A stretch of DNA of 23,033 nucleotides from a virus, in IMG/VR virus record IMGVR_UViG_3300042502_002285, positions 1 through 23,033 of that record; one strand, written 5' to 3'. Below are positions 2,957 through 21,163 of this stretch, one piece after another. Under the pieces are notes generated by a model, which was not told where the DNA came from, did no database searches, and saw nothing but the letters and a program-made list of their open reading frames with translations. The translations under genes were made by a program, and so were the position numbers. The number at the start of each line of letters is the position of its first letter. Position 1 is the stretch's first letter.

Positions 2957-3315
2957 TATTTTGATTTTAGATGTTTCTTATGAAGCAATTTTTCAATTTT
3001 TAACCAACAGTCCGGAATACCTCCCAGCTGGCGATCATCGATGTATACATCGGCAAAGATTTTCCGGGTATCATTTTTGAACATTTCTATCGCCCAGTCA
3101 ACATGCTCGTTCAGCTTGTGGTATTTAATTCCATGTTCGGCTAAAAACTGACGACACAATTCCATAGGATGATCCCAGCGGCAGGTCCAAATGATAATTT
3201 CATGTCCTGCATTATACAGTCGGTTGATTACTTCTTTGGCATGAGGCTTTATCTTTCCGCATTCGGGATAGGTATGCTCAGCAATAGTTCCGTCAAAATC
3301 AATTGCTATCACCAT
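2956..3315 (-). CDS. Small HAD-superfamily phosphatase
   Basis: The 119-residue protein shows HAD motif I, D-F-D-G-T at 6-10, with both nucleophile and acid aspartates. A motif II-like strand I-I-I-W-T-C-R lies near 40-46 and a motif IV-like Y-I-D-D-R near 91-95. It lacks a large cap domain, as in short phage and Bacteroides HAD proteins. The enzyme probably hydrolyses a phosphomonoester, perhaps a nucleotide or polynucleotide end; the substrate is inferred only from its neighbours, a PP-loop enzyme upstream (17 bp overlap) and a dNMP kinase downstream (TAATG junction). No signal peptide is seen, so it acts in the cytoplasm. Confidence 0.8.
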   Translation of the reverse strand: MVIAIDFDGTIAEHTYPECGKIKPHAKEVINRLYNAGHEIIIWTCRWDHPMELCRQFLAEHGIKYHKLNEHVDWAIEMFKNDTRKIFADVYIDDRQLGGIPDCWLKIEKLLHKKHLKSK

Positions 3316-4156
3316 TGATTAGGTTTTTGAGTGACCATTTATTTTTGAAAGTGAATCCTGATTGATTTTCCATATCAATCATTTCTTTTAAAAGCTTTGG
3401 ATTGTGGCGAGCACCATTTTGTAAATCGTTCAGGCTTCCGAGAACACAGAACATGCAGCTTACTCTATCATTACCCATAGCATATGCTGGGTGAAAAGCC
3501 CACCATGTTGGTATTGATGATTTTCTTCGGTAATAATCTCTAGCTAAGGATAGTGCAATATTATCCATGTCATAAGTAGCCCATACCTCATCAATGGTGT
3601 AATTGAAAATTGGAAACCATGTCAGGGCCAGTCGTTTTTTGGGATTGTAGTTTTCAATTGCTTGCTCTACAGTCATTCCCTTGTAATAGGTCGATGTGAT
3701 ATTTGGGCGGATCCTGAGCGGTGATTTTTTAGCCCTGGCTGGTGATTCTTCTGCGCGGATTCCTTCACAGGAAATGATAAAATTCTCCCTGCGCCGAAAA
3801 AACTTGTTAATCGGCTCACGCTTTAGATCAGAGGTACAATAACGGTTCTGAGCGCTGCTCCAGAAAGGTTTATTCTCTCCCATGAGCTTGTTCATTCTAC
3901 GGGCCCAGTATGCCAGCAGATCCAGCCCATCGGATCGTTTAACCACTTCCAGGGGAATATTAAGTTCGATGCTTTGCTGGATGCACATGGTAAGGCTTTG
4001 AGGCCATTCTACCCTTCCCAGATCGGCATGGATCATCGCTTCTACAGGGTAACCCCAATTCCGAAGGCTTTTGACCATTGCCTGGCCGTCCTTGCCTCCG
4101 GAAACACTGGCGTATAACTTAGCACCTTTGGTGAGTGCTTTTTGTACTAATTCCAT
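3299..4156 (-). CDS. PAPS reductase / DndC-like PP-loop family protein
   Basis: The N-terminus has the PP-loop motif S-G-G-K-D-G at 19-24, which binds ATP pyrophosphate in adenine nucleotide alpha hydrolases and PAPS reductases. R-Y-C-T-S-D-L-K-R-E-P lies at 105-115, E-G-I-R-A-E-E-S at 131-138, and a C-M-F-C pair at 234-237. With C107 these cysteines could bind a metal or Fe-S cluster, as in DndC-like relatives. Such proteins are frequent in phages. Proposed roles include sulfur metabolism, base or backbone modification, and host modulation; nothing here decides between them, and no dndA, dndB, dndD or dndE homologue is visible. It is the first gene of the left minus-strand operon, and a TAAATTTG promoter element lies 8 bp before its ATG. 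Confidence 0.8.
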   Translation of the reverse strand: MELVQKALTKGAKLYASVSGGKDGQAMVKSLRNWGYPVEAMIHADLGRVEWPQSLTMCIQQSIELNIPLEVVKRSDGLDLLAYWARRMNKLMGENKPFWSSAQNRYCTSDLKREPINKFFRRRENFIISCEGIRAEESPARAKKSPLRIRPNITSTYYKGMTVEQAIENYNPKKRLALTWFPIFNYTIDEVWATYDMDNIALSLARDYYRRKSSIPTWWAFHPAYAMGNDRVSCMFCVLGSLNDLQNGARHNPKLLKEMIDMENQSGFTFKNKWSLKNLINGDSN

Positions 4157-4171: not shown

Positions 4172-4193
4172 GGTGAATAGTATTGGTTTTACT

Positions 4194-4201
4194 TATATTT
4201 G
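4194..4201 (+). promoter_or_regulatory. Bacteroidota-type -7 element (TATATTTG) for the plus-strand gene
   Basis: The octamer TATATTTG matches TAnnTTTG exactly and lies 16 bp before the ATG at 4218. A weak TTTA at 4168-4171 is the only -33-like word. The surrounding 12-mer TTACTTATATTT (4189-4200) recurs on the minus strand at 19971-19982 in another intergenic gap, which supports a regulatory role. Confidence 0.55.
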
Positions 4202-4217
4202 TCTTTCATATAATTTT

Positions 4218-4721
4218 ATGGCCAAAACCAAAGTTCGAAAGGATAAAAAACCGTTCAAGCCTAAGAGCCATGATCAAATCCTAAACGAAAATTTTAAAAT
4301 GAAACAGGAACATCAGGAAAAGCAAATTGCAAAGATTCCACCGCCCGAAAAAGACTTTCAGGAACTACCTTCCTGGGATAAAGCATCATCATTTCAAGTG
4401 ACAGGTGCTGAATTTGATGAGCTTTATGCTTTCTATCAAATGTTCAGCCCCATGCTGAAAACGATTGAGAATATTTTCCATCGCGGTGTTGCTAAAGGGT
4501 TGATTAAACCCATCTATCTCAAACAGGATGGCTCGCATGCCAGCGAAGAAGAAGTAAAAAAATACCAGCAAGAACTTATGGAGTACATGAAGAAAGTTCA
4601 GGAACTCCGCGGGGTAAAACCTTCACCCATTGTAGGCGTCAATGGAGAGGCGCTTTCCTCCGAATCTGAAGCCGAAGACATTCCCGACGAAAAACCCGAA
4701 GCGGAAAAATCCGAAGCGTAA
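4218..4721 (+). CDS. Lone plus-strand gene, charged protein of unknown function, 167 aa
   Basis: This is the only convincing plus-strand gene. The start is ATG at 4218 (M-A-K-T-K-V-R-K-D-K-K), because an earlier in-frame ATG at 4173 would place the promoter element inside the gene. The N-terminal 45 residues are lysine-rich. Then come F-Q-V-T-G-A-E-F-D-E-L-Y-A-F-Y and F-S-P-M-L-K-T-I-E-N-I-F, probably amphipathic helices. A helical E-E-V-K-K-Y-Q-Q segment follows, and the last 30 residues are E/S/P-rich and acidic. The charge pattern, basic head and acidic tail, suggests a disordered nucleic-acid- or protein-binding factor. No family is recognised. It has its own promoter element and a strong terminator, so it is transcribed separately and may be an accessory gene. 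Confidence 0.75.
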   Translation: MAKTKVRKDKKPFKPKSHDQILNENFKMKQEHQEKQIAKIPPPEKDFQELPSWDKASSFQVTGAEFDELYAFYQMFSPMLKTIENIFHRGVAKGLIKPIYLKQDGSHASEEEVKKYQQELMEYMKKVQELRGVKPSPIVGVNGEALSSESEAEDIPDEKPEAEKSEA

Positions 4722-5192: not shown

Positions 5193-5583
5193 TGTTCAAT
5201 CGGGGTAAGGTTTTTCGCGAATTAAGTATTTCACCAATCACGTATTTGACTAAAATATGGCTTGACGACATATTCAGTATACGCTCTAAATGATCACTTT
5301 CTAGGTCAACCAGGAGGCGATATGTAGCCTCTTCTCTTTTCTCCCATTGCTTTTTTCCGTAAGTGCGCCATAGTAGTTTTGATTTAAGGTCTTTTAAAGA
5401 TGTGTTTTCTGTGATGAAATACGGGATGCATTGGTCATCAATGTTATTAACCATAAGCGAACGGCCACCACAAATAAAGTACATCTTGTTGACTTTTTGG
5501 TCAAAGTATTCGATGTTTTTTGAACATTTTGAGAATAAAACTGTACCATCAGGCGTTTGAAATGCGTTTTGGTAAATCATCAT
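5167..5583 (-). CDS. Conserved phage hypothetical protein, 138 aa
   Basis: The N-terminus M-M-I-Y-Q-N-A-F-Q-T-P-D-G-T-V-L, a following M-Y-F-I-C-G-G-R, and the later R-L-L-V-D-L-E-S-D-H-L-E-R-I-L match, from memory, a hypothetical family widespread in phages and mobile elements (pattern QNA-x2-TPDGT...GG...L-x2-DHI-x2-IL). The function of that family is unknown. The start is taken at the first of two adjacent ATGs, because it overlaps the upstream TGA as ATGA. A proline-rich tail (P-N-P-K-P) overlaps the next gene. No membrane or secretion signal is present. Confidence 0.75.
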   Translation of the reverse strand: MMIYQNAFQTPDGTVLFSKCSKNIEYFDQKVNKMYFICGGRSLMVNNIDDQCIPYFITENTSLKDLKSKLLWRTYGKKQWEKREEATYRLLVDLESDHLERILNMSSSHILVKYVIGEILNSRKTLPRLNNVIPNPKP

Positions 5584-5891
5584 ATCTTGCTTAAAATAGT
5601 CTCTGATCCGGCTAAGTCATTAAAATAAAGAGGCTTATCTTTTTCACACATTTCATATGCTTCCGCAAAAGTTTTCACCGCCGAATTATTTTCAACATTG
5701 CTTTGACTGGTGATAAATTCCATTAATTTGGCATATTTACCTTCAGTGCTGTATTTTATTTCCTCGATCATTTCCGATCCTTCAAATCGGGTTTCTTTGG
5801 ATTTTACCTGTACTTGAATAATCCGACAAAAGGCAGGGTCGTAAAAAACGAGGTAGACCACTTGGCCTACCTCGATGAAATCAATTGGCAT
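5580..5891 (-). CDS. Small hypothetical protein, 103 aa
   Basis: The N-terminal half is beta-rich (I-D-F-I-E-V-G-Q-V-V-Y-L-V-F-Y, then C-R-I-I-Q-V-Q-V) and resembles a small SH3-like or barrel fold. The C-terminal half is helical and acidic (F-A-E-A-Y-E-M-C-E-K-D-K-P-L-Y-F). This layout is seen in several phage early-region hypotheticals, but I cannot name the family. It overlaps the exonuclease gene by 11 bp and the following gene by ATGA, so it is part of the same transcript. The function is unknown. Confidence 0.7.
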   Translation of the reverse strand: MPIDFIEVGQVVYLVFYDPAFCRIIQVQVKSKETRFEGSEMIEEIKYSTEGKYAKLMEFITSQSNVENNSAVKTFAEAYEMCEKDKPLYFNDLAGSETILSKI

Positions 5892-6990
5892 ATAGCTTTA
5901 CCTCAATTTGGTTGTTTTCGTACAATTCCTTGTCAATCCAGACGTTGTTTTCAATATGCCAAAGCATACGGTCAAGGGTTGTCTCCCAGCCTTCCCTGCG
6001 GCCGCGGTGATCATCGTAACCTACACGTTCAACTTCCAGGTCCTCCCAAGAATAAGCGTAGATATACGGCTCATTCAGCGTTTTATCAATGACCACATTG
6101 ATAGGTGGCAAAATCTCATAGCCAGGGAAATTTTGATCTCTCCATGCTTCTACCAGCGGCTTGTAAACGCTGTGCTGAGTACCATAGCCAAAACGCTTGA
6201 TGTCCCCGATAAATGAATTTCTGTGCGCATCCCTGGAAGTTTTAAAGTCTACCTCCCGAACGGTTTTAACGATATGGTCCACCAGAATGATGTCGATGGC
6301 ACCTTTTAGCTGAATTTCCATTGGGTCGGGACAACCAGCTTCAATCAATGCCGGTATCGGATCGTTGAATTTTTTCAGCGGAATAAAAATTTCCTGCTGG
6401 AAAAACAATGAATGACCAGATTCCTGAACAAAATACTTTTTGCTTCGAGGGTGGTTACGGATCATTTCAACTTGGTTGATTGCCTGCAGATTATCTTCGC
6501 TGGAGATAATGGTTTTATTCCCAACTCGTTTGCGCATCTCGAAATAGTCATTTCCTTTCTCGAAAATTTCTTTCAGAATACGCTCATCTTTGTAGCTGCC
6601 TTTACCGTAGTTCACATCCGGACGTTTGGCGATATTGAGAATTTCTTCGTTCAATTCTACCATTGGAATATTTCTTACCTGGCCCATACCAGCAAAACTC
6701 ATTTCTTCCACTGGTGCACAATTTTCTTTGTACAGGGTATCAATAAAATTCTTAATAGCATCCGATGGTATTTTCATTGTATCATCGGCGATAAAGAATC
6801 GTTCTTTCATCAGGTTAGGGCTGAACAAAATAGTATCAACCAGCGAACCGTAGTCGAAATGATCTTCCCGCTTATCCTCAGATTTATTGACAATGTGTTT
6901 TTGATACCATGCCTGAGGGGACATATAGCGGAACTCTTTGATCAAACTTTGGCTGATAGCGAATTTGTTTCTGTAGTCTGTTTGTTGCAT
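5881..6990 (-). CDS. RecE/Cas4-like PD-(D/E)XK exonuclease
   Basis: The 369-residue protein has the motif order of RecB-family nucleases. Helix S-Q-S-L-I-K-E-F (13-20) comes first, then F-D-Y-G-S-L-V-D-T-I-L-F (45-56, like the G...H...L region). G-A-I-D at 230-233 and R-E-V-D-F-K-T-S at 245-252 give D233, D248 and K250. Q-H-S-V-Y at 272-276 matches motif Q-x3-Y. Such enzymes resect double-stranded DNA ends for phage recombination, with RecE and phage Cas4-like proteins as relatives. It is likely the exonuclease partner of the Sak4-like ATPase at 19114-19950, although about 12 kb separate them. The gap to the upstream gene is 2 bp. No Cas4-type cysteine cluster is evident. Confidence 0.78.
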   Translation of the reverse strand: MQQTDYRNKFAISQSLIKEFRYMSPQAWYQKHIVNKSEDKREDHFDYGSLVDTILFSPNLMKERFFIADDTMKIPSDAIKNFIDTLYKENCAPVEEMSFAGMGQVRNIPMVELNEEILNIAKRPDVNYGKGSYKDERILKEIFEKGNDYFEMRKRVGNKTIISSEDNLQAINQVEMIRNHPRSKKYFVQESGHSLFFQQEIFIPLKKFNDPIPALIEAGCPDPMEIQLKGAIDIILVDHIVKTVREVDFKTSRDAHRNSFIGDIKRFGYGTQHSVYKPLVEAWRDQNFPGYEILPPINVVIDKTLNEPYIYAYSWEDLEVERVGYDDHRGRREGWETTLDRMLWHIENNVWIDKELYENNQIEVKLYAN

Positions 6991-6992
6991 AA

Positions 6993-7277
6993 CTATTTTT
7001 TGATTATTTCAACGAATCGAATGTTTGGATTTTGTTTCAAAAATGCTTTGATATACAACCATGTTGTATAATCAGCGTATCCCCTGGGTTGCTGAATCCA
7101 TCCGTTGTATGAGTCTTTGATAGAAAGTTTTTCATCGCGGAAATAAATTTTATCCAGCAGTTTACATCCAAGAATGTTTAGAATTTGATGTAGTTCTCGA
7201 TGCTGACTTTTTTGTGTCTCGGCATTTTCGCTGTTGACAGGAAATACCCATTGTATTTTACACTGATAATGCTTCAT
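6993..7277 (-). CDS. Small protein following ThiF, 94 aa, unknown
   Basis: The ATG at 7277 (M-K-H-Y-Q-C-K-I-Q-W) is preferred to an upstream TTG at 7301. It overlaps the ThiF gene by 20 bp, the same overlap seen between ThiF and the E2-like gene. The protein has a beta start, a helix with H-R-E-L-H-Q-I-L-N-I-L-G, a strand K-L-L-D-K-I-Y-F and a C-terminal helix plus strand. I cannot assign a family. It has no JAMM signature (no E...HxH...D), so it is not the missing peptidase. Its position suggests it may belong functionally to the PRTRC cassette, which is inference. Confidence 0.65.
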   Translation of the reverse strand: MKHYQCKIQWVFPVNSENAETQKSQHRELHQILNILGCKLLDKIYFRDEKLSIKDSYNGWIQQPRGYADYTTWLYIKAFLKQNPNIRFVEIIKK

Positions 7278-8019
7278 GCTTTTTCTTTTTGTAATACCCA
7301 ACGGGCACTTTGACGATTTTCATTGTTTCCAGAGAAAAGAAGAATCCTTGGTAGTCGATTTTCTTTTGGGTAAGTATATCCCATAGCATTGATGAGGCCA
7401 GATCTGCTACAAAGCTGTTGACCAGTATGTGTTGCTTTTTGATAGCTTCTGCAAGGCTGCAGCTGGGAACAGCGATATTGTTTTTGATGTCTCCGAATAT
7501 TTCAAATGCGTTAGGGAGGTAGCTTTTGATTTCTCGTATTTTAGATGAAAGAATAATGTTTCCTGAGTTGAAGTCATTGCCGGTGTCCAGCCAGAAGTAT
7601 GTGCGATTTTCACTAGCAATACGCTCGTAGTTCAGTTTCTTGCGGATCTCTTTGCGGCTTTCGACGTTATCGGTACAGCTGATGATGATGTTGAACCCTC
7701 TGAAGTCTACTTCCGATACTGAGAAAGGAAATGAACGCCAGTTGGTTCCGAAAAATCTGTTCATTCGCTGAATGAGAATATCCGACTTGTACTCTCCTAT
7801 GTCTCCTGGGGTAAAGAGCTGCCTACCCAGGTTTGGCGTATCTACCTTGTCTGGATCACAAAGGCATACCATGAGGTCTTTTTGATGCACTTCGTTGAGT
7901 GTATACGCCAGCCTACCCAGCTTAGTTAATATTTCTGATCCGGTACCACCGGCACCGACCAACAGTATTGAAATCGAATGCCGGGGGTTTTGGAAGTAGT
8001 TAGGAATCTTTAAGAACAT
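7258..8019 (-). CDS. PRTRC-type ThiF family protein (E1-like adenylating enzyme)
   Basis: This is a Rossmann-fold E1-like enzyme of 253 residues. The ATP loop V-G-A-G-G-T-G-S lies at 21-28, C-D-P-D-K-V-D at 54-60 supplies the acidic ATP-ribose contacts, and N-L-G-R-Q at 63-67 carries the conserved Arg. K78 follows in G-E-Y-K, S-C-T-D-N-V-E-S-R spans 114-122, and the candidate catalytic cysteine is C187 in V-P-S-C-S-L-A-E-A. The CxxC zinc pairs of MoeB are absent. The family activates the C-terminal glycine of a ubiquitin-like or sulfur-carrier protein by adenylation. Here the likely client is the Gly-ending protein at 9745-9948. It overlaps the E2-like gene by 20 bp. Confidence 0.88.
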   Translation of the reverse strand: MFLKIPNYFQNPRHSISILLVGAGGTGSEILTKLGRLAYTLNEVHQKDLMVCLCDPDKVDTPNLGRQLFTPGDIGEYKSDILIQRMNRFFGTNWRSFPFSVSEVDFRGFNIIISCTDNVESRKEIRKKLNYERIASENRTYFWLDTGNDFNSGNIILSSKIREIKSYLPNAFEIFGDIKNNIAVPSCSLAEAIKKQHILVNSFVADLASSMLWDILTQKKIDYQGFFFSLETMKIVKVPVGYYKKKKHEALSV

Positions 8020-8680
8020 CTCTTAATTTTTGATTAATGGGAACAAGGTGCTTGGTTGGAAATTCCAATTCGCTATTTCTTAGCTCAGCCATGAGAGAAT
8101 TGTAATTGCGTTTTTGAATGCAATTACTTCCATCATGGGTAAACGTGCTTTCCCAAAACACTGTTTCCAAAAAGTTGATATGTAAGCCAAACTCCATGTT
8201 GATATTCTTTTTGGCGATGTTATACGCTGAGCCAAGGCATACCCATCCTCCAGAATTGATATTTGGAAGAGGAACAGCATACAGCTTTGTATCCATTCTT
8301 TTAAATTCTGTATATGCAAATACTTTTAAGCTAGGATTCAAAACAAAAATTACCCCTGGCATATGGTATTTGCCAGATTTAACGGCTAGATTTTTACTAA
8401 ACTGCAACTCCCGGAAGCGAGGCTCGGACTTCCATATCAGTATCCTTCTCGGAAACTCGTTGTAGTAAATCATATCCTTCGGGATCTCTCCATGCAGGAA
8501 ATCCGTCGATGTTGACAGCGTCCTCGATAAGCCCGAAAGAGCTGACATGCTGAGGGGTATAGCCGGACTCAATGTGCCATCTTTGACCTGCGCGATTTCT
8601 ATGTATGAACTCTGCGTGTCTTCCGAGGTATAAATGGATAAGACTTTGGTAAGATTGAAGGGTTGATTCGCTGTAACCAT
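8000..8680 (-). CDS. PRTRC system protein B (E2-like, Prok-E2 fold)
   Basis: The start is ATG at 8680 (M-V-T-A-N-Q-P-F); a longer frame to 8761 would begin at TTG. Family-like segments include L-S-I-Y-T-S-E, then P-L-S-M-S-A-L-S-G-L, then R-I-L-I-W-K-S-E-P-R-F-R-E-L-Q-F, M-P-G-V-I-F-V, and T-K-L-Y-A-V-P-L. The key stretch P-L-P-N-I-N-S-G-G-W-V-C-L-G mirrors the HPNI...G-x-I/V-C-L active site of ubiquitin-conjugating enzymes, with Cys148 (from this start) as candidate catalytic residue and His replaced by Leu. PRTRC-B has been linked to prokaryotic E2 family D. The first 284 bp are also covered by the frame of the upstream 431-residue gene. Confidence 0.82.
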   Translation of the reverse strand: MVTANQPFNLTKVLSIYTSEDTQSSYIEIAQVKDGTLSPAIPLSMSALSGLSRTLSTSTDFLHGEIPKDMIYYNEFPRRILIWKSEPRFRELQFSKNLAVKSGKYHMPGVIFVLNPSLKVFAYTEFKRMDTKLYAVPLPNINSGGWVCLGSAYNIAKKNINMEFGLHINFLETVFWESTFTHDGSNCIQKRNYNSLMAELRNSELEFPTKHLVPINQKLRDVLKDS

Positions 8681-9692
8681 AAAACTTAAAATTTTGATCT
8701 TTTGGACTGTAGTGAGACAATAATTCAAGCAGTCGAAAATTGTCAATGTTGGTTTTTTCAATACGCCCGTTTGTGTAAAATTTCTTAGTTACTTGAATTA
8801 AGTCATAACCTTCCTGAGCACAAGAATCAAGATATTCTACTATAGCGTCTGGTACATCCCAGCTAATAATAAACTGTGATTGCAAATCTGCTCTAGAATA
8901 GTCACGATCAGGATCTGTTGACTCATAATTAAATACGTGAAACTTTTGCCTATCTAAATAGTCAATAATAGCGGCAAATAAACCTAATGGGGTATTTTTA
9001 TCAATTTCATCGTAGAAGTATTCACTGTTACGATCTGCTGTCGATTCAATCCATTTTTCAACAATATTGGATCTAGTTACTAAATCAGAAAGTTCTGATT
9101 GGTTAGCATGAAAGTTCTCCAATGCTGCGGTTAAGTCTTCTGGATTATGACCTTCGTATTGCTCTTTTATTTCATCTTCCTCCATATCCCCTTCAAGCGC
9201 ATAGTGAAAGACATCAAGATATGTCTCGTAACCCATCTTTGACAGTAAATAATAACCGTAAAAAAGTATATCAAATTCGGGTTTGCCTACTATACCCATA
9301 TGATATTTGTCAATCATATGCCAGTAGCAGTTTATTTCTTCACCATAACTTACTTCAATGTGATCATTCTTAATGATGTAATCTTTCAGCGTGAGTTTTT
9401 CTTCCAATAGTCTCAACCTACGTTCTATGTCGTCAATTGGTAAAAGAGTAGAATCTGCAGGAATGCCATTTAAAGCAGCAATTTTATCTATGGTTAAGAT
9501 CTGCTTTTTTGAAAGGCCTATTTGATTTTTTAAAAATTCACCCCCCGCTATTTTTCGAGTAATGTCGAAAGCTTTTATGGAAGGTGTAAAAGACTTCGGG
9601 GAGTGACCATTCGATTGCGAGTTGTGTCCCGTGAATCTTTGTCTGATATTACCTGGTTCAAGTGCTGGTAAAAGGCCATTAGCTTTTGCCAT
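8397..9692 (-). CDS. Unassigned PRTRC-cassette protein, 431 aa
   Basis: It lies between the Ubl and E2-like genes, where PRTRC loci often carry an extra protein; it might correspond to PRTRC protein F, but I cannot confirm that. The start at 9692 has a purine-rich AAGGAAG just before the ATG. The first 50 residues are polar and probably flexible. The rest looks helical: I-E-R-R-L-R-L-L-E-E-K-L near 90, an acidic G-D-M-E-E-D-E-I-K-E-Q-Y near 170, and aromatic-rich segments afterwards. Residues 338-431 overlap the E2-like gene in another frame and still read as plausible protein (R-W-H-I-E-S-G-Y; F-P-A-W-R-D-P-E-G-Y). It could be the substrate, scaffold or E3-like part of the cassette; that is speculation. 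Confidence 0.75.
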   Translation of the reverse strand: MAKANGLLPALEPGNIRQRFTGHNSQSNGHSPKSFTPSIKAFDITRKIAGGEFLKNQIGLSKKQILTIDKIAALNGIPADSTLLPIDDIERRLRLLEEKLTLKDYIIKNDHIEVSYGEEINCYWHMIDKYHMGIVGKPEFDILFYGYYLLSKMGYETYLDVFHYALEGDMEEDEIKEQYEGHNPEDLTAALENFHANQSELSDLVTRSNIVEKWIESTADRNSEYFYDEIDKNTPLGLFAAIIDYLDRQKFHVFNYESTDPDRDYSRADLQSQFIISWDVPDAIVEYLDSCAQEGYDLIQVTKKFYTNGRIEKTNIDNFRLLELLSHYSPKDQNFKFYGYSESTLQSYQSLIHLYLGRHAEFIHRNRAGQRWHIESGYTPQHVSSFGLIEDAVNIDGFPAWRDPEGYDLLQRVSEKDTDMEVRASLPGVAV

Positions 9693-9712
9693 TCTTCCTT
9701 AGTTTTAACAAG

Positions 9713-9734
9713 GGGCTGAGCGACAGCCCTTTTT
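9713..9734 (+). terminator. Hairpin with T-tract inside the PRTRC cassette (plus-strand sense)
   Basis: GGGCTG (9713-9718) pairs with CAGCCC (9724-9729) around AGCGA and is followed by TTTTTGTTTTATTTTT on the plus strand. No plus-strand gene lies upstream, so it may stop antisense transcription. On the minus strand, the direction of the genes, the hairpin lacks a T tract and lies between the Ubl and the 431-residue gene; it might instead protect or attenuate mRNA there. Confidence 0.45.
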
Positions 9735-9744
9735 GTTTTATTTT

Positions 9745-9948
9745 TCATCCTTTTTCTTTGAAGTCAGATTTTACTTCATAGTTGATCACCCCGTTGGCCA
9801 CTTCTTTTTCCACGATTTTGGCTGTTACCCATTCAGGATATAACCCTGCATAGTGATCAGCAACCTGGCGAAGTGAAAACTCTGGATTAGGGTCTGGATA
9901 TTCTTTATCCTTCCAGTGGAATGTTCGTTTTGCTTTTGAGATTTCCAT
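9745..9948 (-). CDS. PRTRC system protein C (ubiquitin-like, Prok_Ub)
   Basis: The 67-residue protein matches the PRTRC-C pattern: R-T-F-H-W-K-D-K-E-Y-P-D-P-N-P near 8-22, then S-L-R-Q-V-A-D-H-Y-A-G-L-Y-P-E-W near 25-40, strand A-K-I-V, and I-N-Y-E-V before the end. The order strand-turn-strand-helix-strand-strand fits a beta-grasp fold, and this family has been proposed as a prokaryotic ubiquitin-like protein. The chain ends K-E-K-G, so a single glycine is exposed without processing, as an E1-like enzyme would need. It starts within the TAATG junction with protein E, giving coupled translation. Covalent conjugation has not been shown for this family to my knowledge. Confidence 0.85.
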   Translation of the reverse strand: MEISKAKRTFHWKDKEYPDPNPEFSLRQVADHYAGLYPEWVTAKIVEKEVANGVINYEVKSDFKEKG

Positions 9949-10613
9949 TATGCTTCTTGAGTTTGAGCGGTTAATACTTCATTCAGCCTGTTGGTGAATT
10001 TTTCATTCCAGTCTACAGTAGCCAAATCAGCTGCGGTAAGCGCTTTGATTGCATTCTTCTGCAGATACTCAATCATGTCTTCATCTTTGGTATTCTGCGC
10101 TCGGGCAAACAGACCTTCAACATCTGCGATCGCTTTTTTCTGAGCAACGGTAAGAACAGGCTTTGGAGGTTCAGGAGCCGGTTTTTCCTTAACCGGTTCT
10201 TCTTTGGAATCGTCGGTATCATTATCCTCCTCATTATCCTCATCTTTATCCTCTTCATCGTCTTTTTTGGATCCTTTTACCTTGGGAGCCGGGGTTGATT
10301 TTTTCGCGTCCTTGGCTTTTTTGTCCTCTTTCGCTTTCTTTTCTTCCTCAGCTTTCTTTTCTTTCGCAGCGGCAACCATTGAATTTACGTCAATGACTGT
10401 CTGGCGAACTTCCGGAAGTGCTTTGCCAAATTCCTCTAGCAGCTGGGCATCGAGTTCTTCCGCGGTACCGCTGGCTGTTACCGGCAGCAGTGTGCCTTCC
10501 TTATCTTCTTTCAGTACGGGAAGGATGGTAACGGATAGGCCGGTCTTTGTTCGTGTAACAACCATCTTGGCTGTGTCTCCTTCCTGGAGAATATCATTCA
10601 GTTTTGTGAACAT
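9948..10613 (-). CDS. PRTRC system protein E with long charged linker
   Basis: The first 80 residues fit PRTRC protein E: M-F-T-K-L-N-D-I-L-Q-E-G, T-G-L-S-V-T-I-L-P-V-L, then P-V-T-A-S-G-T-A-E-E-L-D and a helix with L-L-E-E-F-G-K-A-L. The family's function is unknown. Residues of about 84-155 form a low-complexity linker, first K/E/A-rich and then D/E-rich with several prolines, which is probably disordered or partly coiled-coil. The C-terminal 60 residues are helical (V-A-Q-K-K-A-I-A-D-V-E-G-L-F-A-R-A). It is the first gene of the PRTRC cassette, 27 bp after the DUF6011 gene. The linker coding stretch is repetitive and would tend to vary in length. Confidence 0.8.
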   Translation of the reverse strand: MFTKLNDILQEGDTAKMVVTRTKTGLSVTILPVLKEDKEGTLLPVTASGTAEELDAQLLEEFGKALPEVRQTVIDVNSMVAAAKEKKAEEEKKAKEDKKAKDAKKSTPAPKVKGSKKDDEEDKDEDNEEDNDTDDSKEEPVKEKPAPEPPKPVLTVAQKKAIADVEGLFARAQNTKDEDMIEYLQKNAIKALTAADLATVDWNEKFTNRLNEVLTAQTQEA

Positions 10614-12681: not shown

Positions 12682-13407
12682 TTAGACGACAAAATCTGGT
12701 TCTGGCTGCCATGAAAAGCTAAGACCATGTGTTTCCTTCATGATCTTGTCAATGCGGGCAAAAAGGCCATTATGTTCCCAAGTGCCGCCGTTGTAGTTGG
12801 CACTGGATGGATGGGAAGCCGTGAGTACAAAATGCCGGCTTTCCCGAACGAGGGGCATATATCCCTGAGCCTGTTTGCCCAGGAAAACAAAAATCAATCC
12901 CCGGTTGTGGTCATTCAGGAAGTTCAGCAGATATGTGATGAAGGGAGCCCATAACCCTTTATGACCGTTGATAACCCCCAGGTTAGTACTCAGCTCGCTA
13001 TTCAGCATTAGAATACCTTGGGCAGCCCATGGTGTCAGATCTGTTTGTACGGACAATGGAAGGTTTAAGCCGTTGTAAAGGTCATTCTCAATGGCCTTGG
13101 TGATGAATCTTAGCGACTTTGGCTGGGTTTCTTCATCTCGGGCAGAGAATGCTATCCCATCAGCCACATGGCGCTGAGAATTGAACGTATTGACCCCAGA
13201 ATAGGGATCTTGGCCAACCATTACCATTTTGAGTTCTGAATAGGGACATTCCGAGAAAGCCCGGAACATATTTTCAAACGTAGGGGTAATAATGTGGCCT
13301 TGCTGGGCGTACTGCATCAGGGCGGCTCCTATTTTGGCAAATTCAGGCCCGTCAATAAACGGTTTGAGGGGAGTATACCAACTCCCCAGCAGTTGATCAA
13401 TTCTCAT
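12682..13407 (-). CDS. ung: Uracil-DNA glycosylase, family 1
   Basis: The 241-residue enzyme has the water-activating loop G-Q-D-P-Y at 65-69 (D67), a G-I-A-F-S strand at 84-88, G-I-L-M-L-N-S-E-L-S at 131-140 and the DNA-intercalation loop S-H-P-S-S-A at 198-203. Length and motif order agree with family 1 Ung. The residue after GQDPY is Ser rather than the usual His, a small deviation. It removes uracil from DNA to start base excision repair. In a phage this implies a normal thymine genome that must be kept free of uracil. It overlaps the preceding gene by 11 bp and is co-transcribed with the methyltransferase upstream. Confidence 0.93.
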   Translation of the reverse strand: MRIDQLLGSWYTPLKPFIDGPEFAKIGAALMQYAQQGHIITPTFENMFRAFSECPYSELKMVMVGQDPYSGVNTFNSQRHVADGIAFSARDEETQPKSLRFITKAIENDLYNGLNLPLSVQTDLTPWAAQGILMLNSELSTNLGVINGHKGLWAPFITYLLNFLNDHNRGLIFVFLGKQAQGYMPLVRESRHFVLTASHPSSANYNGGTWEHNGLFARIDKIMKETHGLSFSWQPEPDFVV

Positions 13408-13711: not shown

Positions 13712-13920
13712 CTCATTGTTTTTTCGTTGTATGAAACACTAAATCCAATAGGATCATTTTTCTTAAAAAGAGATCCGAGCTTTCGATTTTGGAACGCTTT
13801 CCATAAAAACGGAACGGTAGTTAAATGACCAAACTGTTCTTTTACATCTTGCCAATGATACAGATCTGCATAAAGATCATTCAAATACCTTTCATGCTTA
13901 CCTTTGGTGTATTTACTCAT
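13708..13920 (-). CDS. Small basic hypothetical protein, 70 aa
   Basis: The start is set at ATG 13920 (M-S-K-Y-T-K-G-K-H-E-R-Y), which overlaps the methyltransferase TGA as ATGA; a longer frame upstream lies within that gene. The protein is basic and aromatic-rich (Y-A-D-L-Y-H-W; F-L-W-K-A-F-Q-N-R-K-L) and probably helical. No family is recognised. Its position directly after the DNA methyltransferase might mean a DNA-binding or accessory role, but nothing in the sequence proves it. Confidence 0.65.
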   Translation of the reverse strand: MSKYTKGKHERYLNDLYADLYHWQDVKEQFGHLTTVPFLWKAFQNRKLGSLFKKNDPIGFSVSYNEKTMR

Positions 13921-15680
13921 ACAAGTTCCATTTGAGTTTGATAGCCAAGTTGTTTCACTTCCGGTTTTGGTTCTTCTTTGGGCTGCTTGCTGGCTTTCCA
14001 TGCAGCTTCTTCATCGTAGGGAAGCCATTTTTTAGCGGCACAGGCTCGCATGTTGAATTCCTGCCAGAGCTTATCATCTTTAAACTCCAGATGGATCGTA
14101 CCTTTTTTCCAGAATTTGAAACGGAAAAATGTAGACTCACCGGTGTTATCAAACTTATCTCCAGTTTTGATATTCCCAATACAATGCAATCGATAATCCA
14201 GAGATTTATAAAATGTCTGAATGTCATCCATGCTCCGGCCAGTGATATAACACATTACCTTATCAATGTCAGAGTATTCACTTGACTTTCCATAATGAAT
14301 TTTCATGGTATCACCGTGTGACTTCAATGAATAACCCTGCATATACTCACCATACCGAATACCATCTGGGAGAATGACTTTCTTTTTGACCTTGAATCGA
14401 TCATTGGTTTTCCATCCCTCAATGTGCAGCTGATTGTCTTTGTGGTACTTTGTCAGTAAATCAAAGACTTCCTCTACAGCACGTTCCATAATCGTTTCCT
14501 TGTTGTTGAAAATCATTTCGATAATGGACCAAATGTTATCTTTGGTAAATGCCATTGTACCCTGTCTTTTCTGGAATTCAGCCCAATTTTGCCGTACCGA
14601 ATGTGTAAGGAATTTGTCGATGTCAAAATCAGAGATCAGGCTCAGCTTTTGGAATATCAATCGCCACATATGCCGGCGGACTTCTCCTACAAATTCAGAG
14701 TATTTTTCCGTCAGGCTTCCTCCTTGTGTAGCGATTTCCAGCGCAATTTTGGCGATATCCACATCAGGAAGATATTCTCCCTGATCTGTTTTCTTTGGAA
14801 GCAGGGGATTGCCATAATGGGTAAGTTCCTGCAATAGCCTGGTAAATTCAACAAATTTCTCCTTTACGATATCATACTGACTGCTCATGCTGGCAACAAT
14901 GTCTCGTACCGTAGGTAGATCCCGTAAGTCAGCACCATCAATCTCTCTTTGCTTTTCAGAAGTGATTTCCTCAAAAGTAAAATTGAATTTATCCTTGGGA
15001 ACAGGCTTATGTAGTCTTACCAGTGCAACGTTGACATTTGTTTCCCGCTCAGCCCGGCTGAACACAGGACCTAAATACTCAACAGAGCCATTAGCTTCGA
15101 TGATTTTACTCAACAGTTCCCGGTGGCGCGTATGTGGGTTTTTGACCGTTTCTTCATTCAGCAGGCATACGATATCTCCATGATGAAGTATATCCCAGGC
15201 TTTGAGAAGATGATGCTCACCGCTGGAAAACGGTGGGTTCATAATGATCAGGTCAAAAAGTTCGTCCGGTGTGTACGTCAGAAAGTCATTGGCTACTACT
15301 TTGTAACCTTTGTTCCGAAGAATATGTTGTAGTTCTGGATCTGCTTCGATAGTGTAAATGTCTTTTGCGCTTACCTGCAGTTTCCACATAGCTTCTGGTA
15401 TTTTTTCTACCAAAGCCTGGACATATGGATTTTTGTGAAGCTTTTTACCTTTTCCGGAAAACTTATCTTTGAAGTAGTCATCTTCATTTTCATCGATTCT
15501 GTCAAATACTTTCAACAGATCTCCCTTCCCTGCAGATGGTTCGAGAATAACGGTGCCTTTTTTAAGATACGCGTAATAGTATTTGGGATCATCGTCAGGG
15601 GTTGCTTTACAGTAAGGCAGAAGCATATACCTGGCCACCTCAATAGGTGTTGGGTAAAAGTCTGGATTATCCTGGAACAT
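13917..15680 (-). CDS. N6-adenine DNA methyltransferase fused to DUF4942
   Basis: The 587-residue protein opens with F-Y-P-T-P at 8-12 (motif X). It then has the SAM-binding motif I, I-L-E-P-S-A-G-K-G at 45-53, motif II-like I-E-A-D at 111-114, and the catalytic motif IV, N-P-P-F at 148-151, all intact. Residues from roughly 290 to 560 match the DUF4942 pattern, ending with F-R-F-K-F-W-K-K-G-T-I-H-L-E-F. Such fusions are frequent on phages and ICEs. It likely methylates adenine in DNA, perhaps guarding phage DNA from host restriction; no cognate restriction enzyme is visible nearby. It overlaps the gene before it by 14 bp and the one after by ATGA. Confidence 0.85.
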   Translation of the reverse strand: MFQDNPDFYPTPIEVARYMLLPYCKATPDDDPKYYYAYLKKGTVILEPSAGKGDLLKVFDRIDENEDDYFKDKFSGKGKKLHKNPYVQALVEKIPEAMWKLQVSAKDIYTIEADPELQHILRNKGYKVVANDFLTYTPDELFDLIIMNPPFSSGEHHLLKAWDILHHGDIVCLLNEETVKNPHTRHRELLSKIIEANGSVEYLGPVFSRAERETNVNVALVRLHKPVPKDKFNFTFEEITSEKQREIDGADLRDLPTVRDIVASMSSQYDIVKEKFVEFTRLLQELTHYGNPLLPKKTDQGEYLPDVDIAKIALEIATQGGSLTEKYSEFVGEVRRHMWRLIFQKLSLISDFDIDKFLTHSVRQNWAEFQKRQGTMAFTKDNIWSIIEMIFNNKETIMERAVEEVFDLLTKYHKDNQLHIEGWKTNDRFKVKKKVILPDGIRYGEYMQGYSLKSHGDTMKIHYGKSSEYSDIDKVMCYITGRSMDDIQTFYKSLDYRLHCIGNIKTGDKFDNTGESTFFRFKFWKKGTIHLEFKDDKLWQEFNMRACAAKKWLPYDEEAAWKASKQPKEEPKPEVKQLGYQTQMELV

Positions 15681-16479: not shown

Positions 16480-17538
16480 TTATGCAGCAATAAGCGCTGC
16501 TTCTTCCCAAAGATTGAGTTTGTTGTAAGTGTATTCCCTTAATCCTTCAATGGTAAACTGACGAGCAAATTCTGCCGGATCCTTTATTTGAAACTTTTCG
16601 TCCAGCCATAGATGCTTTGGCGTGTTGATGTACCCACAGCCGTATTTGTTGAACTTGGTGCAGTTCTCTACACCGGTATTGTCAGCATCGAACCATATGT
16701 AAATTTTGTCATACCGCTTTTTGAGGTCAGTTAACAACGAACCAAGCAGTGCCCCTTCGCTTTCATTTTGGACAGCCATTACATCCGGCCAAATTTTGCG
16801 CAGCACCATCATATCCTTGCGGCTTTTGGTGATGATCAACGTACTTGACTTATACGGCAGGTCCAGATAACCGTAAGGGTTGGTGTTGGGGTTGTTAGTT
16901 AACCACTTCATATCCCCGCCACTGGGCATATACGCTTTGAAATAATATTTTCCTTGTGAGGCTATGTCTGGAATGACATAAATAAACCAAGGCAATTCTC
17001 CAGGGTTGTAAATGCGTTTTTTGTTGATGAATAATTCCTCAATAGGGTACAGGAAACGATCTGCTTCCAGCTCTTCCTTAGTAAATGAAAAAGGAGTCCA
17101 TATATCTAGGTGTCGTTGCTCCCATGGAAGAATAGTAAACTGAAATATTTTTTCTCGCTTTACATTTTTATCGATCCGGCTGGTATCTTGTTTTTCTCGG
17201 TAGGTCATGGATGCACCCATAAAGGCGTCCTTTACAATACCAAAGTCATTGGCTATTTTTTTCAGCGCATCGCCAAAACCAATTTTATACAACTCCTGAA
17301 CGAAGTCAAAACAGTCAAATGCTTCCTGCCGGGCATGATCGAAATAGGTAAGCTTACCGCTATTATTGTAGAAAAACGAGGTCGATGGGTTACGATCCGG
17401 ACGCAGTACAGAACAATATGTCTTTCCCGGTGAGAAAGATCCGAAGTAATACCCAAATATTTGCTCATCGCTCAATCGCGATAAGATAAAATCTTTTGTA
17501 ATAGTAACCGGGCTTTCTATACCGTCGAAAGTAATCAT
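16480..17538 (-). CDS. DnaG-like primase with atypical TOPRIM domain
   Basis: The N-terminal domain has the DnaG/T7-type pattern Y-Y-F-G-S-F...Y-C-S-V-L-R-P-D-R-N-P-S (41-52), then L-T-Y-F-D-H and F-D-C-F-D-F-V-Q, but without the CHC2 zinc ligands. The TOPRIM domain spans about 232-305. It contains S-T-L-I-I-T-K-S-R-K-D-M at 232-243, N-E-S-E-G at 258-262 and Y-I-W-F-D-A-D-N-T-G at 280-289. The classic catalytic Glu of the first TOPRIM motif is replaced by a T-K-S stretch, while the DxD pair (284, 286) is present. It likely makes RNA primers for phage replication. The gene overlaps the DUF3846 gene by ATGA and lies in the replication block. Confidence 0.82.
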   Translation of the reverse strand: MITFDGIESPVTITKDFILSRLSDEQIFGYYFGSFSPGKTYCSVLRPDRNPSTSFFYNNSGKLTYFDHARQEAFDCFDFVQELYKIGFGDALKKIANDFGIVKDAFMGASMTYREKQDTSRIDKNVKREKIFQFTILPWEQRHLDIWTPFSFTKEELEADRFLYPIEELFINKKRIYNPGELPWFIYVIPDIASQGKYYFKAYMPSGGDMKWLTNNPNTNPYGYLDLPYKSSTLIITKSRKDMMVLRKIWPDVMAVQNESEGALLGSLLTDLKKRYDKIYIWFDADNTGVENCTKFNKYGCGYINTPKHLWLDEKFQIKDPAEFARQFTIEGLREYTYNKLNLWEEAALIAA

Positions 17539-18202: not shown

Positions 18203-18847
18203 TTAGTTTACAGCACTTTCCCATGGCGCTTTTGCTACAGCACCGCCTACTGCTCCGTTGAGTACGGGTGCAGAAGTAGCACTTACCAGCTGGCCGGCTT
18301 TCGTTGTCTTCTTTTTGGTGACAGCTTTTTTGTAAGCCTCACTGTCCTTTACGTAAGGACCTTCAACAAACTGAGCCTTTTCGCCTTTGAAGATAAAGTC
18401 TACAAAACCTAAACGGCTGTATACTTTACCATCTTCCTGCTCTTCGCCATTTACCAACAGGTAGATAGGAGGGCATTTTTTGCTCAAAAGCTTTGCTTCA
18501 AAGTAATCAACCAGTTCATCAAATTTGATAAACGATTCGGTGATTTTACCACCAAATACGGCTTCGTGAAAGTATTGAAGACGACCCAGCATGGTCTTTG
18601 ACTTTGAAGCATCTTCTCCGGCCAGGTAGAAAGTTTCCGTCAGGTCTTTACCGTCACGGGTAGTGAAAACGACAACCATTGTAGGCTTAGCCGTTTTTTT
18701 AGTGTCCTTCGGCGTCTTGGTTTCATACTTCACCTCTTTGACAGCTACTTCGTACATACCAGGCTCGAGGTAGTTTATCGATGGGACATCGATATCTGCC
18801 ATGTTAATAGGTCCAGTGGGCATCAGCGTTCCTTGTTCTTGTGACAT
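18203..18847 (-). CDS. SSB-like (OB-fold) DNA-binding protein
   Basis: The 214-residue protein has the layout of phage single-strand-binding or DUF669-type proteins: a short leader, then Y-L-E-P-G-M-Y-E-V-A-V-K-E-V-K-Y (25-40), a strand pair P-T-M-V-V-V-F-T-T-R-D-G-K-D (54-67), and T-F-Y-L with a following helix L-G-R-L-Q-Y-F. Further strands include I-Y-L-L-V-N-G. The C-terminal 60 residues are flexible, Ala/Lys/Val-rich, and end in W-E-S-A-V-N rather than the typical acidic SSB tip. It would coat single-stranded DNA during replication and recombination. Proximity to the Sak4-like ATPase, which in other phages works with SSB, supports the call. A terminator follows directly. Confidence 0.68.
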   Translation of the reverse strand: MSQEQGTLMPTGPINMADIDVPSINYLEPGMYEVAVKEVKYETKTPKDTKKTAKPTMVVVFTTRDGKDLTETFYLAGEDASKSKTMLGRLQYFHEAVFGGKITESFIKFDELVDYFEAKLLSKKCPPIYLLVNGEEQEDGKVYSRLGFVDFIFKGEKAQFVEGPYVKDSEAYKKAVTKKKTTKAGQLVSATSAPVLNGAVGGAVAKAPWESAVN

Positions 18848-19993: not shown

Positions 19994-21163
19994 CTACGAA
20001 CCTATGAGGCCCGCAAATGGAGCGAAAGTATCATCACTGATATTTCCGACCAGTCCGCGCCGATCTTCCAGCGCACGCACATACGAATACAGCTTGTCCA
20101 GGTCTTTTTTCTCCGGCATCTGAGAAAAGTCTTCAGTCAGGCCATCAAAGAATAGGCCGATATCTACTGGTGCTTCGCCTACGTTGGAGGCAATGACTCG
20201 TAGATGGCGATAGAAGTCCTTCATAATGTTCACGTTGCAGCCAAAAGCACTACCATCGGCTATATGGTGACGATAGGGAGAGAATAAGCCCATAATGACG
20301 TGTGCGGTCTGTCCGGTGGCTTTGTTGTCTCCCAGGCCAGCAATAGAGGGCATAACCTTTTCTACGATCAACTGACCATTGTTGGCATACTGATGCGATG
20401 TGGATGCCGGTGCTTGCTGTTGGATATCGATGACGGTAACGCCAAAGAAGTTACAAAGCCAGGTTCGTACATAGTACTCCGTCCATTCGTCAATTGCAGC
20501 CCTGGGGGTAGAATGTTTATCTTCCTGTTCAATGTTTTGAACGTTATCCACTACAAGAACAAAATGGGTACCCGTTTTATTTACATAACGAGCAGGCTTT
20601 TTGATTTGATTTTCGCCTTCTCCAATGGTTTCGTACTCGATTTCACCATGCTGCATCAGAATGTGATGGAGATACCTGTAAATCAGTTTTGGCTGCCGAA
20701 TAGTGTCCATGATGATAATATCATTCATGATTTCCTCGATGTATAATTCAGATTCTTTAATGTACTCAATCATTATATCATTTAGTCGAAGATGCTCACC
20801 CATGCTGGATAGATCCTCCACTGTTATTTCAATAGTGTGGGTATTTCGTAAAAAATCACAGATCAACATTTTTAAAACCCTGTCCTTACTATCTTCCAAC
20901 GGTAGGTAGATGAATTTTGCCTTGTATCCTTTTGCTTTAGCCCAAGCTGCAGGTTTCAGGATAAACATTTGCCGGCAAAACTTACTCTTTCCAATTTTAG
21001 TATCTGCAGTGATCAGGTAGTGCAAACCAGGAACAATTCCGGGCACTACCCTATTCAACTTTGGAATATGAAAAGGAATTGAGTTGTATTCACCTCTTTT
21101 ACGGCGCTCGTAGTTTCCGATGATCTGACCAAGTACTCTTTGGATATCGCTTTTCTCTGCCAT
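19994..21163 (-). CDS. DnaB-like replicative helicase (RecA-fold ATPase)
   Basis: The 389-residue protein has Walker A A-D-T-K-I-G-K-S-K at 53-61. Y-L-P-L-E-D-S follows at 86-92 with the likely catalytic Glu90, then Walker B F-V-L-V-V-D-N at 201-207, and V-I-D-I-Q-Q-Q at 244-250 as the nucleotide sensor. A late S-I-A-G-L-G-D-N-K motif resembles the DnaB loop that contacts DNA. There is no N-terminal DnaB helical domain; only about 30 residues precede the core, as in short phage helicases. It would unwind DNA at the fork together with the primase at 16480-17538. The gap to the preceding gene is 9 bp. Confidence 0.78.
   Translation of the reverse strand: MAEKSDIQRVLGQIIGNYERRKRGEYNSIPFHIPKLNRVVPGIVPGLHYLITADTKIGKSKFCRQMFILKPAAWAKAKGYKAKFIYLPLEDSKDRVLKMLICDFLRNTHTIEITVEDLSSMGEHLRLNDIMIEYIKESELYIEEIMNDIIIMDTIRQPKLIYRYLHHILMQHGEIEYETIGEGENQIKKPARYVNKTGTHFVLVVDNVQNIEQEDKHSTPRAAIDEWTEYYVRTWLCNFFGVTVIDIQQQAPASTSHQYANNGQLIVEKVMPSIAGLGDNKATGQTAHVIMGLFSPYRHHIADGSAFGCNVNIMKDFYRHLRVIASNVGEAPVDIGLFFDGLTEDFSQMPEKKDLDKLYSYVRALEDRRGLVGNISDDTFAPFAGLIGS

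Follow-up and report, generated by a model that had tools for sequence, protein, structure and literature searches.

The DNA analysed here, hereafter the window, is the whole of IMG/VR record IMGVR_UViG_3300042502_002285 (23,033 bases), a viral sequence that is most likely a fragment. Its minus strand, which holds nearly all of its genes, carries a PRTRC cassette between a uracil-DNA glycosylase (UDG) gene and an exonuclease gene. The PRTRC family corresponds to operon type 6d, which combines a ubiquitin (Ub)-like protein whose C-terminal glycine is highly conserved with E1-like and E2-like proteins, a JAB protein and a rapidly diverging alpha-helical protein, and whose carriers include Bacteroides thetaiotaomicron (Iyer et al. 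2006, PMC1779556). No tested function was found in the literature for PRTRC cassettes, noted since 2006. Judged by the sequences of its genes, the window cassette belongs to this family and is of a kind already known; it is a JAB-less variant in an uncommon host element. New here are a coupling between the presence of JAB and the way in which the Ub-like protein, PRTRC-C, ends, and a small additional gene, X.

Genes of the cassette

In minus-strand order, the cassette reads E, C, X, F, B and ThiF. PRTRC-E (9948..10613, minus strand; 221 amino acids, aa) matches TIGR03741 at 2e-12 (47 bits, cut-off 37.95), the C-terminal half of the protein is acidic and lysine-rich, and the stop codon of its gene overlaps the start of the C gene (TAATG). 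PRTRC-C, the ubiquitin-like modifier (9745..9948, minus strand; 67 aa), matches Prok_Ub PF14454 at 4.3e-14 (52.5 bits against a cut-off of 25) and PRTRC_C at 4.3e-11 (42.8 bits, slightly below the cut-off of 45.95); it ends in FKEKG, at Lys-Gly, with no tail after it. The stop codon of C is overlapped in turn by the ATG of X (AAA GGA TGA), a 57-aa open reading frame (ORF; 9575..9748, minus strand) that ends in TPRSLLHLP and had been overlooked in an initial annotation of the window.

The protein between C and B is 431 aa long as a mechanical ORF (8397..9692, minus strand), although its start is uncertain and the ORF overlaps X. It is divergent and mostly helical, with a low-confidence AlphaFold2 model (mean pLDDT, the predicted local distance difference test score, of 45). 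Profile searches of protein-family libraries gave no family match, and the initial annotation had left it unassigned; the protein is not foreign to the cassette, being by position the PRTRC F component, to which it also corresponds in size, with weak profile similarity. The slot between C and B is occupied in 144 loci and is that of PRTRC-F in annotated plasmids; blastp to the counterpart in L002, the only close relative of the window cassette, gives 9e-21, and the profile match to proteobacterial F is weak (E 6e-4, probability 28%).

PRTRC-B, E2-like (Prok-E2_D), is encoded at 8000..8680 on the minus strand (226 aa from ATG); its residues are numbered here from the TTG of the mechanical ORF at 8761. 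It matches PF14460 at 3.1e-20 (73 bits, over the cut-off of 25) and TIGR03737 with 72.7 bits, under the cut-off of 131.45. Trp110, Pro135, Pro164, Asn167, Cys175 and Gly177 are invariant across 55 divergent B proteins. The active-site motif, N167-x7-C175-x-G177, reads PNINSGGWVCLG in the window, and its Asn-Cys spacing equals that of the HPN...C of UBE2D, HPNINSNGSICLD. The structural model of B is confident (pLDDT 84). The last gene of the cassette encodes PRTRC-ThiF, a ThiF/E1-like adenylyltransferase (7258..8019, minus strand; 253 aa) that matches TIGR03736 at 1.7e-56 (191 bits, above the curated cut-off of 144.75) and ThiF PF00899 at 4.6e-16, with a GAGGTGS nucleotide loop and an invariant PSCS cysteine (C187). 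Against the Protein Data Bank (PDB), the best matches of its profile are eukaryotic E1s, and Cap2, ThiF, MoeB and MccB relatives are also listed. The genes and their conserved catalytic residues are thus directly observed: Pfam and NCBIfam profiles confirm E, C, B and ThiF where the initial annotation had placed them, together with its assignment of C, ThiF and B as Ub-like, E1-like and E2-like. As a separate observation, Acinetobacter phage vB_AbaM_ME3 (H12) has a ThiF like that of the window, and in a viral library the predicted fold of its BFVD entry A0A172Q0C7 matches the B model.

The absence of JAB (PRTRC-A), also proposed in the initial annotation, is borne out by the proteins scanned in this phage fragment, none of which matches it. 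Nor is a PRTRC ParB gene found beside the cassette, where the upstream genes encode a DUF6011 protein and a GIY-YIG nuclease, whereas plasmids carry ParB there. Lacking JAB, the window cassette is filed under the JAB-less branch of the PRTRC family and not as a complete PRTRC system.

JAB and the C-terminus of the modifier

The coupling of JAB and tail is a direct observation from 233 loci that have B and ThiF and in which C could be read, scored with hidden Markov models (HMMs) built for this analysis; some contigs were fetched twice, and the distinct C proteins number 109 from JAB-less and 86 from JAB-positive loci. Without JAB, C stops at the position of the conserved Gly and has no tail in 127/127 loci (KG in 122, LG in 3, NG in 1 and KA in 1). 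Three further JAB-less loci, namely plasmids L007 and L180 (hand-read) and Deinococcus gobiensis L326, agree, giving a total of 130, all tailless. With JAB, C continues beyond this position in 101/106 loci, by 1 to about 97 residues, and has no tail in 5/106. A perfect rule, as seen in 80 loci, was weakened in the larger set by these five tailless JAB-positive loci. Among representatives at 75% ThiF identity, all 76 JAB-less ones are tailless, and the JAB-positive ones comprise 23 tailed and 4 tailless. The HSHG...S..D metal motif is retained by 118/118 JAB proteins. On the ThiF+B tree, at least three changes of JAB state fall on well-supported branches, and in the independent pairs the tail never runs counter to JAB. 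One locus, L044, has the sole JAB-less C that ends in Ala (GTKA) and not in Gly, which may be a sequencing error or an inactive modifier.

The tail as a separate reading frame

JAB-positive loci in which C has no tail, or one of 1-3 residues, carry a small ORF directly after C. In 9 of the 11 distinct ORFs compared, this free ORF is homologous to the fused tails of relatives (blastp E-values down to 3e-21 and identities as high as 64% along almost the entire length), the exceptions being L177 and the 7-residue-tail locus L065. Such a segment, fused after GTKG in some loci and free in others, is consistent with a product whose usual release is by a cut after the Gly. Since the tail tracks JAB, and since most JAB-positive loci with no or almost no tail encode the tail as a free ORF, JAB is most likely the maturase of the C-tail fusion. 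The claim rests on the exact junction and on the free homologous tail ORF as much as on the counts.

JAB-less loci also have a small ORF, X, within 60 bases after C (123/129), and in 43 of these, as in the window, the stop codon of C lies inside an ATGA overlap. This X frame is under purifying selection, with a ratio of non-synonymous to synonymous polymorphism (pN/pS) of 0.435, where the other frames give 1.04 and 0.97. It has in common with the JAB-positive tails only its position and a hydrophobic C-terminus.

Distribution of the JAB-less form

A search of genome contigs with the window ThiF alone returned nothing, and an alignment of close relatives gave matches. ThiF relatives were found on 215 viral contigs, in at least 560 genomic stretches and on 385 plasmids. 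Phages with PRTRC cassettes are already public, an example being the isolated Burkholderia phage BgVeeders33.

The order E-C-F-B-ThiF without JAB occurs in 119 loci and is the rule among the Bacteroidota loci examined; PRTRC_A is absent from the entire genome in 39/39 Bacteroidota genomes with the cassette, with a positive Polaromonas control. The JAB-less order is also found on plasmids of Pseudomonas, Azotobacter, Vibrio, Shewanella, Aeromonas and Deinococcus. JAB relatives were detected in 109 plasmid records, and Pseudomonas is not among their ten commonest organisms, yet it accounts for 141/385 plasmid ThiF records. The initial annotation had read the linkage to phage early genes and the loss of JAB and ParB as a trimmed, possibly stand-alone form. 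This is only partly right: the missing JAB does not mark a phage-specific form, as the JAB-less arrangement is usual in Bacteroidota and common on Pseudomonas-type plasmids.

Some loci depart from the usual set. The Vibrio rotiferianus plasmid pAM7 (L174) encodes two different B-like proteins (1129-1860 and 5213-5962) near one ThiF, with no C by HMM, and two viral loci (L084 and L323) have F-like, B and ThiF proteins with neither a recognisable C nor JAB. In the human faecal phage scaffold MT839883 (L005:2710-3275), the ThiF of a PRTRC set is split into two ORFs, with an integrase-core transposase-like ORF farther downstream, on the opposite strand. A reading of the viral records as conjugative elements was rejected, TraG-D_C being absent from 50 records and terminase (PF03237) present in 10.

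The replication region and the phage

The minus strand of the window begins with a DEAD/ResIII-type helicase, a DnaB-like replicative helicase (19994..21163, minus strand; phrog_19/239, blastp 4.6e-33 to cr106_1), a Sak4-like ATPase, a single-stranded DNA-binding-like protein (18203-18847; weak DUF669 match) and a Toprim DNA primase (16480..17538, minus strand; phrog_12622 at 9e-38, with crAss-like/Flavobacterium phage matches). These are followed by a DUF4942 methyltransferase, UDG, the GIY-YIG nuclease and the DUF6011 protein, then by the cassette, and finally by a PD-(D/E)XK exonuclease and a 3′-phosphoadenosine 5′-phosphosulfate (PAPS)-reductase-like protein. The upstream neighbour UDG (12682..13407, minus strand) matches PF03167 at 9.4e-8 and, by tblastn, crAss-like phages; the downstream neighbour, an exonuclease VIII/DUF3799 protein (5881..6990, minus strand), matches phrog_412 at 2.8e-18. 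By tblastn, the primase and UDG lead to crAss-like, Flavobacterium and Bacteroides phages.

The phage-like replication setting noted in the initial annotation is thereby upheld, as the DnaB-like helicase (4.6e-33), primase (2e-18), UDG (1e-35) and exonuclease (1e-26, to that of cr111_1) have homologues by blastp that are co-ordered in Steigviridae (3 genomes compared). In L002, whose ThiF is 64% identical, the neighbourhood is repeated and a tyrosine integrase is present. Because of this homology and shared order, together with the L002 neighbourhood and integrase, the element is most likely a crAss-related phage. No structural gene, Crassvirales capsid, portal and terminase genes included, was recognised within the 23,033-base fragment, and the taxonomic order of the phage is therefore not established.

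Other genes of the region merit mention. The only clear opposite-strand gene of the window (4173-4721, plus strand) has no Pfam match and has a likely counterpart at L002:13065-13457 on the minus strand. A gene of the PAPS-reductase family lies no more than 10 kb from the PRTRC cassette in the window (3299-4156) and on two plasmids (L007:10171-12660 and L178:11382-12500), which is possibly a coincidence, and DUF4942 proteins occur near the cassettes of the window (13917-15680) and of an Azotobacter plasmid (L181:7924-9684).

Proposed mechanism and alternative explanations

The explanation that we favour, and consider rather probable overall, is a JAB-less type 6d cassette that acts by protein conjugation in the replication region of a crAss-related, Bacteroidota-type phage. 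ThiF would adenylate the terminal Gly of C and then carry C on its conserved cysteine, B would accept C on Cys175 as a thioester, and C would be joined to a target, with F and E possibly serving as target-recognition or scaffold parts. The operon position suggests that the targets may be replication or recombination proteins. In JAB-containing relatives, C would be made fused to a C-terminal segment and JAB would cut after the Gly; JAB probably deconjugates as well, because it is also present at some loci where C has no tail that could be removed. In the window phage, the precursor step would be taken at the level of the gene, C being encoded to its Gly and X being split off by the GGATGA overlap. 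With C pre-cut and X separate, no protease would be needed and the tag would probably not be removed, so that deconjugation is likely absent from this phage.

Several points weigh against this explanation. Conjugation of C is proposed from sequence, and the window being a fragment, JAB may lie elsewhere in the phage. B was matched to no solved E2, either by its sequence profile against the PDB or by its model, for which a Foldseek search of the PDB gave nothing at E <= 0.001 and did not place any E2 in the top 50; B is accordingly E2-like by its active site, its fold being not proven. The check by which the initial annotation was to be refuted did not refute it: C matches Prok_Ub and B matches Prok-E2_D with the active-site motif in place, although structure search gave no confirmation of the E2 fold. 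Much of the raw JAB/tail count is accounted for by shared ancestry. With only about three independent JAB changes, a tree-aware sign test cannot become significant (p 0.25). Finally, homology between the JAB-less X and the JAB-positive tails, once considered, was withdrawn, as the hhalign probability was 0.4 and HMM matches were barely above those of shuffled sequence.

The unproven fold of B leaves some room for a ThiS/MoaD-like sulfur carrier, or another small-molecule reaction with no protein conjugation, in which B would be a partner enzyme rather than an E2. ThiF, MoeB and MccB relatives do appear in the PDB list of the ThiF profile; its best matches, however, are eukaryotic E1s, Cap2 appears there too, cysteines are invariant in both ThiF and B, and the Asn-x7-Cys-x-Gly of B resembles the HPN...C of E2s. 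As relatives have JAB partners and no sulfur or cofactor genes lie inside the cassette, we judge such a chemistry unlikely. The coupling of JAB and tail might itself be inherited, the JAB-less lineages descending from tailless ancestors and JAB being deconjugating only. The small number of changes on the tree would allow this, and the five tailless JAB-positive loci imply that JAB is kept for something besides tail removal, but most of these carry a homologous free X and the junction always falls at the Gly. Moreover, tail length ranges from 0 to 97 residues among the JAB-positive rows, the 76 JAB-less representatives never have a tail, and three separate JAB-less groups, Deinococcus and gammaproteobacterial plasmids among them, lack it; ancestry as the whole account is hence rather doubtful.

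An equally doubtful alternative is that of cargo acquired from the host, or of a defence or anti-defence module, that has no connection with replication and merely sits among replication genes. PRTRC cassettes are indeed common both on plasmids and in bacterial chromosomes, and PADLOC reports weak E1-E2 matches, for ThiF only. Against this stand the same placement in L002, the only near relative, and the fact that E1 genes of plasmids and crAss-like phages also adjoin replication genes. Identity with the BIL or CBASS defence systems was rejected, the PADLOC matches being partial and none covering a whole protein.

Beyond the favoured mechanism, we tentatively suggest a broader possibility, to which we give somewhat less than even credence: PRTRC modifiers may be born as two-part precursors of a Ub-like protein and a conserved C-terminal partner, X, like ubiquitin-ribosomal protein fusions, with evolution alternating between cleavage by JAB and a gene split made at the codon for Gly, where stop and start overlap (GGATGA). 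If so, X would be a general, overlooked sixth PRTRC component, possibly acting as adaptor or as first substrate, and phages like the present one would use a protease-free, presumably irreversible version during DNA replication.

Relation to known systems

No report of the JAB/tail coupling was found in the literature searched, in which subscription journals and preprints were not covered. The coupling yields a simple prediction for JAB with an exact cut site, cleavage after GTKG, and the always pre-cut tag of JAB-less loci suggests what the protease normally does; the pre-cut C is a natural pre-activated modifier for biochemistry. X, for its part, is a small gene that annotation omits or hides in the tail of C.

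The window cassette resembles type 6d/PRTRC (TIGR03736/37/38/41) in its Ub-like protein with a C-terminal Gly, its E2-like protein with a Cys, ThiF and the gene order of plasmids, and possibly in the diverging helical protein. It differs in that no JAB (PRTRC-A) or PRTRC ParB is adjacent, C stops at the Gly, X is separate and the setting is a phage replication module. With the JAB-less cassettes of Bacteroidota and Pseudomonas/Vibrio-type plasmids, it shares E-C-F-B-ThiF, no JAB and a C that ends in Gly, although the window and L002 together make up a separate deep branch inside the JAB-less clade. Burkholderia phage BgVeeders33 (OK665841) likewise has a PRTRC cassette in an isolated phage, but keeps JAB, and its C has a 62-residue tail.

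BilABCD and type II CBASS Cap2/Cap3 are bacterial E1/E2 conjugation systems, as is proposed for the window cassette. In the former, the JAB protein BilC matures BilA by exposing the BilA Gly (PMC11354881). Both are host defence systems of other protein families and fusions, and the window lacks JAB.

In Steigviridae such as cr111_1, JAB and ThiF genes occur in a homologous replication module with the E1-like gene between primase and UDG; unlike in the window, JAB is present, no C or B homologue is detected by HMM, and ThiF is about 33% identical over half its length. There (L170:6412-10313 in cr111_1, also L171 and L172), a 426-aa protein, JAB (Prok-JAB 7e-4, HSH motif), ThiF and a 224/249-aa protein stand between primase and UDG, possibly another ubiquitin-like cassette in the same module. 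The window places a ubiquitin-like cassette in the replication region of a crAss-related phage; gut members of the crAss-like viruses have, in a homologous module, JAB and E1-like genes of their own.

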